Source: Molanna angustata
Lineage: Eukaryota > Arthropoda > Insecta > Trichoptera > Molannidae
DNA: 64,000 bases
Assembly: GCA_963576475.1 (NCBI GenBank)
Contig: OY754982.1
Coordinates: 4,553,201 to 4,617,200 of the forward strand
Reading direction: 5' to 3'
A program made the translations under genes and the position numbers. The notes under the pieces were generated by a model. The model did not search any database. It was not told where the DNA came from and saw nothing but the letters and a program-made list of their open reading frames with translations. Position 1 is the stretch's first letter; every line of letters begins with the position of its first letter. Positions 8,317 to 54,439 of the stretch are shown in pieces.

Positions 8317-8358
8317 CTATTGTAACGTTTTCGGACTTTCGTCCATCATCAGCAACGT
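8317..8358 (-). ncRNA. Hammerhead ribozyme with canonical core (PLE-associated)
   Basis: Read on the minus strand: helix I 5' strand GUUG, CUGAUGA (8352-8346), one extra U (8345), helix II GGAC-GAAA-GUCC, core GAAA (8332-8329), helix III insert ACGU, then UA with predicted cleavage after 8323, and helix I 3' strand CAAU. All catalytic positions match the hammerhead consensus. Proximal helix I is only 4 bp including a G-U pair. Helix III is a bare palindrome, so activity would be expected mainly as a dimer. It lies just 3' of a PLE endonuclease ORF, the arrangement known for PLE hammerheads. Confidence 0.85.
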
Positions 8359-8383: not shown

Positions 8384-8822
8384 CTATGTTATGCGTTGCG
8401 CGGGAGGGTTTGGCGGAGGGGGGGCGGGGGGGGACTTCAATAGATTCGTGGCAGGGGTGTATTGGTTTTTTGTCAAAAGGCACTGAAGTGGAGAGGTGAT
8501 GGGAGGTCTGTGAATATTTAAAAGATGTATGTTGTGGTTTTCTTTTCCGATTTCGATTTTTTCCAATATGTCCAATTTTCTTCCTTTGTTGCAAATGTGT
8601 ATTGGTTGTGCTTCCCCTCCATTAAATTTGTGTCCTGTATCTCTTATGTGGTCCGCCATTTCGGAATTTAGGCTGAAGTTTTTGGTGGCTTTCACGTGTT
8701 CTTTTATTCGAGCAGATATTTTCCTTCCTGATTGTCCAATATTGAAGGCTTCGCAGCTTCCACATTGAATTTTGTAAACCCCACTTTTGTTTAATTTATC
8801 TATTTTGGATTTGTAAAGTTGT
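8384..8822 (-). pseudogene. Penelope-like element GIY-YIG endonuclease C-terminus
   Basis: An open minus-strand frame of about 145 codons. It begins in KSKIDKLNKSGVYKIQC and continues GSCEAFNIGQSGRKISARIK, matching the GIY-YIG endonuclease of PLEs (GVY ... Y-I-G, here N-I-G). It ends in a proline-rich tail. The reverse-transcriptase part is absent, so this is a 5'-truncated copy. The second signature Tyr is replaced by Asn. The hammerhead at 8317-8358 lies downstream, as in known PLEs. Confidence 0.88.
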
Positions 8823-8843
8823 ATCCAAAATAGATAAATTAAA
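8790..8843. repeat. 21-bp inverted repeat at the PLE truncation point
   Basis: 8790-8810 and 8823-8843 are perfect reverse complements with a 12-nt loop. The left arm lies inside the PLE frame (codons for KIDKL). The right arm is therefore an inverted copy of PLE coding sequence, marking the 5' truncation junction as a snap-back. Confidence 0.85.
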
Positions 8844-9164
8844 TGACAGAGATAAATTACAGGTACAAAGAGAACGTATCTGTGATATTTTTTACAATTT
8901 CCATTTTGAATATAGATTCAGATACAATAAAAATGTCAGTATGGTCATTAAAGTTTTCCATATTTTGTTAAGTGGTATCCTGAATCCTGCATTAGTTGTT
9001 GTCAACGTAACGAAAAAATTCAAGTTTTTGGGCAGCCGATTTGCGAGCACATGTTTTCAAGGGTTGCAAATCTGGATTTGTAATCAAAAATCATTAATAA
9101 TCCATTTAATGAAAGTTCCCCTGCAACATTTGACTGAGATAATTGTATATTTCAATCGTTGAGC
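8844..9164. other. Unassigned sequence
   Basis: No recognisable element. The small ORF at 8941-9162 has no familiar motif. Confidence 0.45.
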
Positions 9165-9240: not shown

Positions 9241-9838
9241 TGTCTTAGATTTGCTAGTGTCCTAATTTCTTCCCCTGTCATGCATCGTCCTATTATTATT
9301 ATTCCTAACGATCTTATTTCAATTGCACTTTTTTGTGAGACTTCTGCCATGGTTTTAAAACTTTTATAATTATATCTTGAAGTGTGGTCTATCTATCTTT
9401 TATTTTTCATCGTAATAAATATAATGACATTTACAGGTAAGGCTATTTTTGGTCAAAAATAGTATAGATAGTGTAAAGGCAGGAAGTCGAAGTGGAAAAA
9501 TTGAAATATTGAAGATAATATCTGAAGTGATGCATCATCGTCATATGGACAGGAGGTTAGTTTAAAAGACTCTTGGAAACTCTGAAAGAAGTTCATGCAT
9601 AATATCGTGATCGATTATTTTTCAAGAGAAGAATAATCTTGAAATATTACTGTACCTACGAACTAAACCCAGAAGAGCTTCTGAATAGTTTAATAAAATT
9701 ATAGATAAAAATAGATAATATGTTTCAATAAGTTTTATACATGAACACCATCATACTGTGTTTCTGATGAGGGTAGGCAGATACAATCAAACGCCATATC
9801 ATCATATATCGCTTCATCTAGATACTTTCAATCGTCAC
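9241..9838. other. Unassigned sequence
   Basis: No gene seen. A perfect 9-bp hairpin with a 2-nt loop occurs at 9443-9462. Confidence 0.45.
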
Positions 9839-26370: not shown

Positions 26371-26545
26371 GGGTCGATGGCAGAGCGGTTAGCGCGCTGG
26401 ACTAGTAATCCAGTGATCGCGAGTTCGAATTCTGCCTCGACTGATTTCGTTCACCTATAGCACAAGCATTTATTTGCTTATTTTAGGGAACGTAGGAAGA
26501 TGTATATGTATTTGTTTAACAAGGACATATTCATTTAAAAAAAAA
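26371..26545 (+). mobile_element. SINE family 1, cleanest tRNA head
   Basis: tRNA-like head 26372-26443 with A box TGGCAGAGCGGTTAGCGCG, anticodon arm CTGGA-CTAGTAA-TCCAG (anticodon AGU) and B box GAGTTCGAATTC. The body then has GATTTCGTTCACCTATAGCA and GGAAGATGTATATGTA, with an A-rich end. RNA polymerase III transcription is expected from the family type. Confidence 0.93.
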
Positions 26546-30240: not shown

Positions 30241-31290
30241 ATGTTACAAGTAAATTCAGTTAGTGTTCTCCATAAAAAAATTATTGATTTTTTTAACCAT
30301 ATTGCAAGTCAATATAGTTAGTCTTTGATTGCTGTCATTGCTGTGTTTTGATTTTAAACATTTGATTCACTAGTACCATACGATAAATAAATAAATAGTT
30401 AGTGTTCCCCATAAAAATGTTCTTGATATTTTTAACCATATTGCAAGTAAATTTAGTTAGTGTTCTCCATAAAAATGTTATTGATATTTTTAAACATATT
30501 GCAAGTAAATTTAGTAAGTGTTCTCCATAATAATGTTATTGATATTTTTAACCATATTGCATGTAAACTTAGTTAGTGTTCTCCATAAAAATGTTATTGA
30601 TATTTTTAACCATATTGCAAGTAAATTTAGTTAGTGTTCTCCATAAAAATGTTTTTGATATTTTTAACTATATTGCAAGTAAATTTAGTTAGTGTTCTCC
30701 ATAATAATGTTATTGATATTTTTAACCATATTGCATGTAAATTTAGTTAGTGTTCTCCATAAAAATGTTATTGATATTTTTAACCATATTGCAAGTAAAT
30801 TTAGTTAGTGTTCTCCATAAAAATGTTTTTGATATTTTTAACTATATTGCAAGTAAATTTAGTTAGTGTTCTCCATAATAATGTTATTGATATTTTTAAC
30901 CATATTGCATGTAAATTTAGTTAGTGTTCTCCATAAAAATGTTATTGATATTTTTAACCATATTGCAAGTAAATTTAGTTAGTGTTCTCCATAAAAATGT
31001 TATTGATATTTTTAACCATATTGCAAGTAAATTTAGTTAGTGTTCTCCATAATAATGTTATTGATATTTTTAACCATATTGCATGTAAATTTAGTTAGTG
31101 TTCTCCATAAAAATGTTATTGATATTTTTAACCATATTGCAAGTAAATTTAGTTAGTGTTCTCCATAAAAATGTTATTGATATTTTTAACCATATTGCAA
31201 GTCAATTTAGTTAGTGTTCTCCATAAAAATGTAATTGATATTTTTAACCATATTGCAAGTAAATTTAGTTAGTGTTCTCCATAAAAATGA
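30241..31290. repeat. 58-bp tandem array with trimeric higher-order pattern
   Basis: GTGTTCTCCATAA recurs at 30403 (a variant) and then every 58 bp from 30461 to 31273, giving 16 regular units. One further unit at 30263 is separated from the array by a unit with about 82 bp of extra sequence. Units marked by ATAATAATG followed by GCATG occur at 30519, 30693, 30867 and 31041, exactly 174 bp apart, defining a three-unit higher-order repeat. The array ends abruptly at about 31290. Confidence 0.97.
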
Positions 31291-38847: not shown

Positions 38848-39031
38848 TAAGTTAATAAAAAAATCTGGTACAAAATAACTTTGTCTTCCACTTCACATTT
38901 ATAATGGTTAGAACATTTTCGGACTGTACTATTCCTTTACATTTCGAAGTACAGCCCGAAAACGTTCTAACCATTAAACATGTGAAGTGGAAGAAATTAA
39001 GTTATTTTGTACCAGAATTTTTAATAAACTT
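38848..39031. repeat. Long imperfect palindrome, possibly PLE-derived
   Basis: Arms of about 83 bp (38848-38930 and 38947-39031) with few differences, around a 16-nt spacer. Shared arm words are CTGGTACAAAATAACTT, CTTCCACTTCACAT, AATGGTTAGAAC and TTTTCGG. Read outward the right arm contains CCGAAAACGTTCTAACCATT, the same GAAA-ACGU-U string found in the hammerhead at 8317-8358, then GAAGTGGAAG, similar to GAGTGGAAG beyond that hammerhead. No CUGANGA box is present. Confidence 0.8.
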
Positions 39032-43396: not shown

Positions 43397-43590
43397 GTCG
43401 GCCTTAGTGGCTCAGTTGTTTGGGTATCTGACTGCTGATCCAAAGGTCCCGGGTTCGATTCCCGGTGGAGACACAGTTACTAATTGTGTTTTCGGTCTGG
43501 ATCTGTGAGACGATTAATATTTAAGTCTCCAGAATGTAGCAACTTGTTATTGGGTGTGTGTTAAATTAATATTTGACATAGTACCTGTAA
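43397..43590 (+). mobile_element. SINE family 2, second copy in tandem orientation
   Basis: GTCGGCCTTAGTGGCTCAG, GGTATCTGACTGCTGATCC, B box GGTTCGATTCCCGG and the body to ATTTGACATAGTACCTG. It stops before the GCCCGAGAAG end. 82 bp separate it from the previous copy. Confidence 0.92.
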
Positions 43591-52150: not shown

Positions 52151-52212
52151 ATTTTTTTTCTACATTTCAATATGGTGATCTTCTGATACAAAGTGCAATT
52201 TATCTAGATTAA

Positions 52213-52275
52213 ATTTATCTAGATCATTATTCTGACGATGTGCCTAGCACGAAACGCGTCGATAATCTAATAAAT
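52213..52275 (+). ncRNA. Hammerhead ribozyme, best preserved in the window
   Basis: Helix I: AUUAUU (52226-52231) with GAUAAU (52261-52266), 6 bp, extended distally by AUUUAU-UAG with CUA-AUAAAU across a bulge. Core CUGACGA (52232-52238; position 7 tolerates C), extra U, helix II GUGC-CUA-GCAC, GAAA (52251-52254), helix III insert CGCG (self-complementary) and UC, with predicted cleavage after C52260. Every invariant catalytic residue is present. A one-palindrome helix III predicts poor monomer but good dimer activity, as described for PLE and retrozyme hammerheads. Confidence 0.88.
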
Positions 52276-52400
52276 ACAATAGAACTATTACCAAGTTTTT
52301 TTATATTTTTATAACATATATACAATGGAGTTCTATCAAGAATTGTCGATCGACAAACTAAACTTAGTTATCTAGATTAAAAATTCGTTGAAATATCGAG
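52276..52400 (+). mobile_element. Probable PLE or retrozyme 3' segment after the hammerhead
   Basis: Contains ATGGAGTTCTATCA, shared with the segment behind the decayed hammerhead at 44335. No coding sequence. Confidence 0.4.
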
Positions 52401-53125: not shown

Positions 53126-53416
53126 TTGTTTTAAAGTAATTGTATAAATATCAATTTGGGGTGTGCTATGTACAGGAGATACATACTTTCCTTAATCATT
53201 TTTATGGAAGTCATTTCTGATGTATAAATACTTTGAATTAAAATGTAATACTCGATTTTTGACACTTGAAAAAGAAGCGTTATTTGCTGGAAATTAAATA
53301 CCTCTAAGATTAACCACTTTGAACAAATTATATCAATAAACTTATAGTTTGGGTGTGGGATGAACAGATATTATACATTTAATGATTCGGCGGATATTTT
53401 GTGGTAGTTAATATAA
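53126..53416. other. Unassigned sequence
   Basis: Nothing recognised. Confidence 0.35.
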
Positions 53417-53471
53417 ACCATTTTTGAATTATTAGTTAGCTATAAACCACTTGTTTTTTGAGTCACTTCGC

Positions 53472-53507
53472 GACATGTTTCGGAAGCGCTGTCCTTCCAT
53501 CGACCGG
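53472..53507 (-). ncRNA. Decayed hammerhead motif in the left PLE arm
   Basis: Mirror of 54337-54372 and identical to it as far as read: the core box reads CGGUCGA instead of CUGACGA, followed by an extra U, helix II GGAAG...CUUCC, GAAA, the palindromic insert CAUG and UC. Two invariant bases (U4, A6) are changed, so it should not cleave. Confidence 0.6.
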
Positions 53508-53517
53508 CGTGTCGAGA

Positions 53518-53958
53518 CTAACATATTGAATTTGTGTGAATCTGTCTGTGAAGCGAGGGGGGTGGCGGTTGAGGGTTGGTTGGGTTAGTGGGGGGAGGGG
53601 AGAATTGTGAAGTGTTTTTGTTTTTGATGGGAAATATATTAAGTATTGGAGAGGTGTTATGAAAGGTATGGTTATTTATAAGTTTTATACCGGAATTTAT
53701 GTGTTTATGTATTTCGAGCGTTTCGTAGTTGTTAAGTCGGTATCCTTTATTCTGTGTTTCATGTAATAGTTTTAGTTTGTGGTTATTGAAAGAGTGATTA
53801 GTTTGGATAATGTGGTTAGCAAATTCTGAGAAATTATTGTTGTTTAAGCATCTTCTGTGTTCGTTAATTCTTATATTTAGGTTACGTGATGTCTGTCCTA
53901 TGTAGTGTTCATTACAGTCACCACATGTTATTCTATAAACTCCACATTTTCTTTGTAA
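53518..53958 (-). pseudogene. PLE GIY-YIG endonuclease fragment
   Basis: 147 codons on the minus strand: LQRKCGVYRITCGDCNEHYI, GQTSRNLNIRINEHRRC, then SEFANHIIQTNHSFNNHKLK, LLHETQNKGYRLNNYETLEI and a proline-rich end before the stop at 53518. GVY ... YIGQTSR ... R..EH is the GIY-YIG signature with both tyrosines, and the C-x-D-C pair is typical of PLE. Upstream bases 53959-54055 encode NTLPTSIKAAFYTNNNISRS in another frame, so there is one frameshift. The RT domain is gone. Confidence 0.93.
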
Positions 53959-54336
53959 TTTCTTTTAGTTTTAGAATTTAATAATGATCTACTGATGTTG
54001 TTGTTGGTGTAAAATGCAGCTTTGATACTAGTTGGCAGTGTATTTTTTATTTTTTCAATAACCACAAACTAAAACTATTACATGAAACACAGAATAAAGG
54101 ATACCGACTTAACAACTACGAAACGCTCGAAATACATAAACACATAAATTCCGGTATAAAACTTATAAATAACCATACCTTTCATAACACCTCTCCAATA
54201 CTTAATATATTTCCCATCAAAAACAAAAACACTTCACAATTCTCCCCTCCCCCCACTAACCCAACCAACCCTCAACCGCCACCCCCCTCGCTTCACAGAC
54301 AGATTCACACAAATTCAATATGTTAGTCTCGACACG

Positions 54337-54380
54337 CCGGTCGATGGAAGGACAGCGCTTCCGAAACATGTCGCGAAGTG
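54337..54380 (+). ncRNA. Decayed hammerhead motif in the right PLE arm
   Basis: CGGUCGA (54338-54344), U, GGAAG-GACAGCG-CUUCC (perfect 5-bp helix II), GAAA (54363-54366), CAUG, UC (54371-54372), GCG pairing with the CGC before the core. See the left arm for the mutated core positions. Confidence 0.6.
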
Positions 54381-54439
54381 ACTCAAAAAACAAGTGGTTT
54401 ATAGCTAACTAATAATTCAAAAATGGTAGATATTATACA

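Follow-up and report, generated by a model that had tools for sequence, protein, structure and literature searches.

The most probable account of the motif studied here, in our view, is that of a type I-like hammerhead ribozyme of dimer design, belonging to a Penelope-like element (PLE) and carried in a short non-coding retrocopy, whose RNA would start at the first ribozyme nucleotide and whose cutting would not be needed for insertion. Comparison of sequences alone establishes the family and its descent from a PLE parent, two fixed 3' ends, the target duplications and the 5' ends that keep an uncut ribozyme. The motif lies in a 64,000-nt stretch of the Molanna angustata genome, which we call the window, and the features of the insertion and its ribozyme are these:

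52200-52213: left copy of a 14-bp target-site duplication, TTATCTAGATTAAA (flank comparison)
52214-52224: filler TTTATCTAGAT, a second copy of target sequence (letters; flank comparison)
52225-52367, plus strand: PLE pseudo-LTR retrocopy, 143 bp, non-coding, from the putative RNA +1 (A52226) to the tail end (family alignment)
52226-52266, plus strand: whole hammerhead motif (read from the letters)
52226-52231, plus strand: hammerhead helix I, 5' strand AUUAUU, and putative RNA 5' end (letters and arm 5' ends)
52232-52238, plus strand: hammerhead core CUGACGA (letters)
52239, plus strand: extra U separating A9 from helix II (present in all 77 arms that span the ribozyme)
52240-52250, plus strand: helix II, GUGC-CUA-GCAC, with GUGC at 52240-52243, GCAC at 52247-52250 and loop CUA (letters, between-family comparison)
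52251-52254, plus strand: hammerhead core GAAA (letters)
52255-52258, plus strand: palindromic helix III insert CGCG (letters, fold energies, other families)
52259-52260, plus strand: UC, with the predicted cut after 52260 (letters)
52261-52266, plus strand: helix I, 3' strand GAUAAU (letters, between-family comparison)
52324-52367, plus strand: 'tail' between two presumed RT start sites, left edge approximate (family alignment; cf. PMC11167929)
within 52324-52367, plus strand: candidate ORF start ATGGAGTTC... (putative)
52368-52381: right copy of the target-site duplication (flank comparison)

The core of the type I layout (CUGANGA, GAAA and UH) is present in the correct order in the window copy and in most arms of its family, which we name the CGCG family, and 55 of the 77 arms combine an intact core and H17 with all 10 pairs. 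A previous sequence-only reading of this DNA had described the invariant core, a 4-bp helix II and a 6-bp helix I at these coordinates, with the cut after 52260, and the letters agree on every one of these points, the UC at 52259-52260 marking the predicted cut. It had overlooked U52239: helix II does not sit directly on A9, and the additional U is found in all 77 arms of the CGCG family. An extra base at the junction of A9 and helix II is tolerated in a viroid hammerhead. The same reading had called the ribozyme intact and extended by a distal helix, but that helix is built from 52214-52224, which is flanking target repeat and not element; it appears because the filler TTTATCTAGAT repeats target sequence beside the duplication, and this filler is absent from L002, L004 and L007.

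A large repeat family with a Penelope-like parent

The retrocopy is 92-98% identical to 39 other places among the best 40 scored, and three overlapping queries returned 2473, 1552 and 1892 first-look candidates, the best 40 being scored each time; the CGCG repeat family is large. The loci studied number 60 and comprise the window together with L009-L047 and L049-L068, L048, which overlaps L029, being left out of the arm counts and included in the motif scans, and L035 (465 nt) served as a natural reference copy. At about 110-140 on this reference, a stretch common to several long copies runs up to CTTTTGTTACAG, immediately ahead of ACCTAATGG, and resembles a 3' splice site; L043 differs from the other long copies in this region.

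The link to a coding element comes from L029, where an open frame for an RT end and a GIY-YIG-like domain is followed by a stop and then, on the same strand, by the pseudo-LTR and ribozyme of this family. The 305-aa piece that it encodes has 63 protein relatives, with PF00078 in 27 of them, PF01541 in 9 and both in 5; those that are named are insect entries, and the piece is 39-43% identical in tblastn to two ORF pieces of the window. The piece itself gave no Pfam match to RT or GIY-YIG at E of 1 or less and no PDB relative, and none of the copies recovered was a full-length element combining the ribozyme with an ATG and ORF. Because of the L029 frame, its RT and GIY-YIG relatives and its match to the window pieces, the parent of the 143-bp copy is, on this evidence, a Penelope-like element.

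The suggestion that the hammerhead has its home in a mobile element was thus correct, in that it lies in a retrocopy of a PLE family with a target duplication. The further proposal of a non-autonomous carrier holds to the extent that the copy is non-coding, but what carries the ribozyme is a short retrocopy of PLE RNA and not a retrozyme. It had also been said that no PLE coding sequence lies next to the ribozyme, which overlooks two pieces of PLE coding sequence in the window, both on the minus strand and both from other PLE families with hammerhead remnants of their own:

53518-53964, minus strand: GIY-YIG piece of another PLE family (PF01541 just above the cut-off)
53988-54326, plus strand: inverted partial copy of the GIY-YIG piece at 53518-53964
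53467-53511, minus strand: hammerhead remnant with CAUG palindrome and altered CUGA box (motif scan; model E 0.37)
54333-54377, plus strand: hammerhead remnant of the same family as 53467-53511 (motif scan; model E 0.37)
8384-8917, minus strand: GIY-YIG-like ORF piece of a third PLE family (tblastn, 42% identical to 53518-53964)
8318-8357, minus strand: hammerhead of the third PLE family, with ACGU palindrome and extra U (motif scan and covariance model)

The piece at 8384-8917 gave no Pfam match, and about 30 nt after its end comes the hammerhead at 8318-8357. In both remnants of the other family the CUGA box reads CGGU. The surrounding region, 53409-54435, contains PLE 3' ends placed head to head, 99.5% identical over 383 bp.

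Anatomy of the insertions

When aligned with L035, the arms of the family fall into a tailed class ending near 465 (61 arms) and an untailed class ending near 395-432 (48), with 3 ending otherwise; matches below 50 bits, including weak ones in L023 and L041, were dropped before arms were counted, and unclassified pieces in L015, L030 and L041 were counted as neither tailed nor untailed. Arms stand head to head in 46 of the 60 loci, a count in which the partner arm of L030 and an extra piece of L015 are unclassified. Every one of the 45 head-to-head pairs with both ends classified consists of one tailed and one untailed arm, in the two possible orders 23 and 22 times. No tailed-tailed pair was seen among these 45, though the queries could sample them; pairs of two untailed arms could hardly be sampled by queries that included the tail. 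Target duplications of at least 8 bp flank 35 of the 45 pairs, against 3.9% of mismatched flanks, the duplication count having taken only tailed/untailed pairs, a restriction from which the count of pair classes is free. Direct arms within 250 nt are clear in one of the 60 loci (L034), and two more have such an arrangement with an unclassified piece.

Pseudo-LTRs with an optional tail, inverted arms and target duplications, the features by which a PLE insertion is recognised, are therefore all present. The simplest reading is that both ends of the target prime, each on a different RT start site. Head-to-head arms might instead arise by self-priming on antisense RNA, as is proposed for the rotifer Penelope in the excerpted text of PMC3846280; this concerns how copies arise rather than what the motif is, and it would suit the fact that both arms usually share subfamily sites. 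We think it unlikely, however, as every classified pair has two different 3' ends, at 465 and at about 421, and a copy of one arm should be unable to provide the extra tail of the other. A further candidate, two unlike RNA templates per insertion, found no support, the arms nearly always sharing three subfamily sites.

5' ends of the copies and the RNA start

The first nucleotide of the ribozyme corresponds to A320 on the L035 reference. Our main sample of 5' ends consists of copies chosen by the sequence downstream of the cut (39 of the best 40, of 1892), and in it 16 of the 30 untailed arms start at reference 316-323, the best 8-nt window clear of 309-330 holding 3 of 30. The tailed arms of the same 39 places are spread more broadly, 27 of 39 starting within 305-350 and 7 of 39 at 316-323, and in this sample no arm starts within 3 nt of the cut. 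The computed start of the window copy, 314, includes filler that happens to match the reference. Over all 60 loci, many of which were chosen by a query favouring longer copies, starts at 316-323 are found in 19 of the 48 untailed arms and in 12 of the 61 tailed ones, and starts at 352-358 in 1 of 48 untailed arms (L015, at the cut) and in none of the 61 tailed arms. TATATAA occurs at reference 289-295, 31 nt above A320, in 32 of the 37 arms that reach there, a conservation that common descent alone may explain; the initiator of the CGCG family, GCATTA, is a poor match to the consensus.

Because the 5' ends pile up at nucleotide 1 and a TATA box lies 31 nt above it, the ribozyme probably starts at RNA +1; the data suggest, at the least, that it sits at or near the RNA start. 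They also lean towards insertion from uncut RNA: since most sampled copies keep the uncut end, cutting would not be required before insertion. The pile-up would be uninformative about the RNA start if this were an ordinary PLE hammerhead at whose fold the RT stalls or jumps, or if the ends were joined through microhomology. Short overlaps or filler are indeed frequent at the junctions, and the ends of the tailed arms scatter across 40 nt within the ribozyme and immediately ahead of it. But an RT would meet the 3' strand of helix I first, so that stalled ends should gather near 355-366 and not at 320, and the untailed peak is sharp (16 of 30 within 8 nt) and at the usual distance from a TATA box; we accordingly give such artefacts a low probability and prefer a transcript that starts at the first ribozyme nucleotide.

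Similar starts may exist in other families, for which we compared eight head-to-head junctions chosen for closely spaced ribozymes, a choice under which a wide spread could not be observed; the listed members of the 1733 genome-wide pattern matches described below include 10 close pairs and 13 pairs 0.4-4 kb apart. In five CCGG junctions the arms start 11-15 nt above CUGA, at TCAGTT, as read from the printed centres (the script value of 18 for three of them includes mismatches), and in two ACGT1 junctions they start 17-19 nt above CUGA. The ACGT2 junction, L076, matches L021, the only long ACGT2 relative, for 12 nt, short of the initiator of L021 at 19 nt. In the CCGG sequence L031 the A of TCAGTT lies 14 nt above CUGA and GGTTAG stands at +28, and the ACGT1 sequence 8352 has GGACGA at +28 and a poor initiator.

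The consensus letters of the initiator, TCAKTY, and of the downstream promoter element (DPE) are general knowledge. Of 12 sequences, 4 (L031, L021, L079, L080) have a perfect TCAKTY no more than 20 nt above CUGA, 1 has one at 21-53 nt above it, and none has one in the 60 nt that begin with CUGA; the upstream parts of L077-L082 may be flanking DNA. A DPE was flagged at +28 in 3 of the 12 sequences, from 27 start candidates without a shuffled control, and two of the three have poor initiators. According to the excerpted text of PMC4748587, DPEs are found in insect non-LTR elements at about +28 to +32.

It is conceivable that hammerhead and core promoter are here one object, with transcription starting at the first ribozyme nucleotides under a TATA box or under an initiator and a downstream element, copies made from uncut and presumably capped RNA, and cutting by dimers acting as a switch. 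In the CGCG family the promoter would be the TATA box at -31; elsewhere the downstream element would lie in helix II or its loop, as with TCAGTT and GGTTA at +28 in the CCGG type and GGACG at +28 in ACGT1. We put this forward tentatively, as a possibility that is less probable than not, because the junctions were picked among close pairs and one of them, that of ACGT2, is a misfit. If it were true, the switch would strip the RNA of its 5' end and so decide between translation, use as a template and the processing of tandem read-through.

A model for the life cycle

We propose that the first ribozyme nucleotide would be the start (A+1) of transcripts of CGCG-family PLEs, with TATATAA 31 nt upstream. 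The PLE protein would cut AT-rich DNA, and reverse transcription would begin at either of two internal positions, some 100 and 145 nt in from the 5' end of the RNA; running off the uncut 5' end, the reverse transcriptase would leave short copies, either single or as two head-to-head arms. The ribozyme would cut well only when two copies, on two RNAs or on one tandem read-through RNA, pair through the self-complementary ACGCGU. Such dimer cutting would remove a 35-nt 5' leader, and it would be unnecessary for insertion.

The carrier suggested by the sequence-only reading would correspond to an animal retrozyme, an element with tandem hammerheads and a circular RNA that is non-autonomous and relies on PLEs for its mobility. 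A non-coding unit of about 143 bp with low GC, a type I-like hammerhead with weak helix III and a large copy number would all suit a retrozyme, but close direct arms are clear in only 1 of 60 loci where head-to-head arms are found in 46, so that tandem repetition is not the rule; the ends of the copies are presumed RT start sites and a putative RNA start, 1 of the 109 classified arms having its end at the cut; and in L029 this sequence is linked to an RT/GIY-YIG coding region. A retrozyme is thus a very improbable source of these copies, and we retain the short retrocopy of PLE RNA.

Hammerheads of other families and the identity of the motif

That the palindrome of helix III reflects a design for cutting as dimers, as had been proposed from the window alone, is borne out by other families, where the tetramer varies and is often still palindromic (CGCG, ACGT, CCGG, CTAG, CATG and TCGA). 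Two hammerhead patterns run over the 995-Mb genome matched at 196 and 1733 places, and the reversed pattern at none. Among the matches listed of the 196 we copied 41 unique strings by eye; the tetramer, which the pattern did not constrain, is palindromic in 27 of these, and of the remaining 14 strings 11 differ from ACGT by a single base. A scan allowing any insert found four sequences outside the CGCG family (8352, L021, L031 and L057), all with a palindromic tetramer followed by a cut-site dinucleotide, L031 and L057 having an alternative spacing under which helix I is longer; the scan also picked up CGCG-family copies whose tetramer is mutated. An extra base between A9 and helix II is found in all types seen, either U or, in L031, the CCGG genome matches and L057, G; in L057 an alternative pairing without the extra base is possible. 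The listed members of the 1733 matches are nearly all of the CCGG type, many of them in head-to-head pairs.

An Rfam covariance search had been named beforehand as a test that could refute the hammerhead, and, taken literally, its outcome went against the motif: Rfam scans of the window returned no hammerhead, and neither did a scan of 20 relatives, whose 76 matches were mostly to microRNA and sRNA models, which we take to be head-to-head palindromes, with some tRNA-like ones. We judge the missing match uninformative about the identity of the motif, because this ribozyme is without a closed helix III, which the Rfam hammerhead models expect. A covariance model trained on 11 sequences of other families, with the window's family left out, matches 52227-52265 at 22.8 bits (E about 1.7e-4, a rough value). 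The hammerhead at 8318-8357 scores above the window motif in this model, its family (L075) being in the training set. The next matches in the window, at 38911-38935 (minus strand) and 9759-9793 (plus strand), are partial or weak, with E about 0.013 and 0.046.

In a test of covariation between families with 13 rows, both partners vary in each of the 5 pairs of helix I, where 67.7% of cells are paired; the corresponding figure for helix II is 92.3%. Helix I is the free test, the GG/CC of helix II being fixed by the search pattern in most rows, and the helix III counts are biased, as L077-L082 were picked from families with palindromic tetramers. The structure as a whole has 84.0% of cells paired against 61.2% in shuffles (0 of 500 reaching it) and at most 38.0% when slid. 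Helices I and II are thus supported by covariation between families. We used only this between-family comparison, and do not take conservation of the ribozyme within the CGCG family as selection, because it reflects recent common descent. In L055 the same helix II position is unpaired in both arms, which suggests one RNA or one source locus for both.

In an energy model without tertiary terms, the monomer prefers a misfold in which GACG pairs with CGUC (-7.6 kcal/mol, against -2.6 for the hammerhead), and the optimum of the dimer lies at -19.9 against -14.1 kcal/mol for the double hammerhead, a preference that counts against the hammerhead fold, though it would also fit a ribozyme in need of a partner or a protein, like that of the Anolis PLE. 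A look-alike produced by chance, for which one might cite the missing Rfam match, a single-strand fold of the motif stretch no better than shuffles (z -0.92) and a loose CUGANGA...GAAA pattern that barely exceeds its shuffles (9 matches against 3.08 expected, 2 of 100 shuffles reaching 9), is hardly credible given reversed controls without matches (both for the genome patterns and for stricter motifs, with 0 in 333,480 nt of reversed sequences in a first motif scan and 0 in a second scan of the same sources), the covariation across families and the covariance-model match. The last two lines of evidence uphold the original identification, and we regard the window motif as a genuine hammerhead, type I-like and of dimer design.

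Relation to known systems

Minimal, dimer-type hammerheads in PLE pseudo-LTRs have been described by Cervera & de la Pena (2014) and by Lunse, Weinberg & Breaker (2017), as related in the excerpts of PMC7761336, PMC6155905 and PMC6466107, the last of which adds that hammerhead dimers need a palindromic stem III loop. The present ribozyme is the same as those published, so far as these excerpts describe them, in lying in a PLE pseudo-LTR with a helix III too short to close alone, and may differ in the additional nucleotide that this family constantly carries after A9, ahead of helix II. In the Poseidon PLE of Anolis carolinensis an optional tail is delimited by two internal RT start sites, both of them 3' of the ribozyme, each target strand is cut and extended by the PLE protein, and cutting by the ribozyme is not needed for insertion in vitro and does not occur without the protein (PMC11167929). 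The CGCG family shares with Poseidon the position of the ribozyme 5' of two RT starts, here presumed, and the optional tail, and by our model also target extension on both strands and insertion without ribozyme cutting. However, the Anolis ORF begins at stem II and is cut 26 bp after the start codon (PMC11167929), whereas in the CGCG family 68 nt separate the cut from the first ATG in the tail downstream of it; and in Anolis no reads began or ended at the cut (PMC11167929), while our placement of the RNA 5' end is argued from the copies.

The satellite hammerheads of newt and axolotl resemble this one in their very weak helix III, palindromic loop and better performance as dimers, but, like the metazoan retrozymes, they form tandem repeats that give rise to circular RNAs, according to the excerpted text of PMC7229834; the CGCG family is dispersed, in single or head-to-head copies, and has a coding PLE parent. 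The nearest parallel that we found to a start site within the ribozyme is Pr77 of the Trypanosoma cruzi element L1Tc, where a promoter with a downstream element, acting in the DNA, and a self-cleaving ribozyme, acting in the RNA, share the first nucleotides of a retrotransposon. As described in the excerpt of PMC4748587, L1Tc is a LINE with an HDV-like ribozyme and its promoter function was tested, in contrast to the CGCG family, where a promoter is inferred. Dimeric PLE hammerheads are thus already known; the pile-up of copy 5' ends at the first ribozyme nucleotide is possibly new, and among the titles and abstract openings listed from one literature collection none places a PLE ribozyme at the transcription start. 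The very many independent retrocopies of this family allow the use of cut or uncut RNA in insertion to be asked from sequence alone, and mapped 5' ends, should they confirm the start site, would give a parallel to the promoter-plus-ribozyme start of the trypanosome L1Tc (excerpt of PMC4748587) in an unrelated ribozyme and retroelement.

The window also contains low-scoring tRNA matches in the Rfam scan at 26372-26443 and 43401-43473, similar to others in L050, L052, L059 and L067 and perhaps representing tRNA-derived SINEs. Two satellite-like arrays lie at 9-808 (71-bp unit, 11.3 copies) and 30396-31289 (58-bp unit, 15.4 copies).
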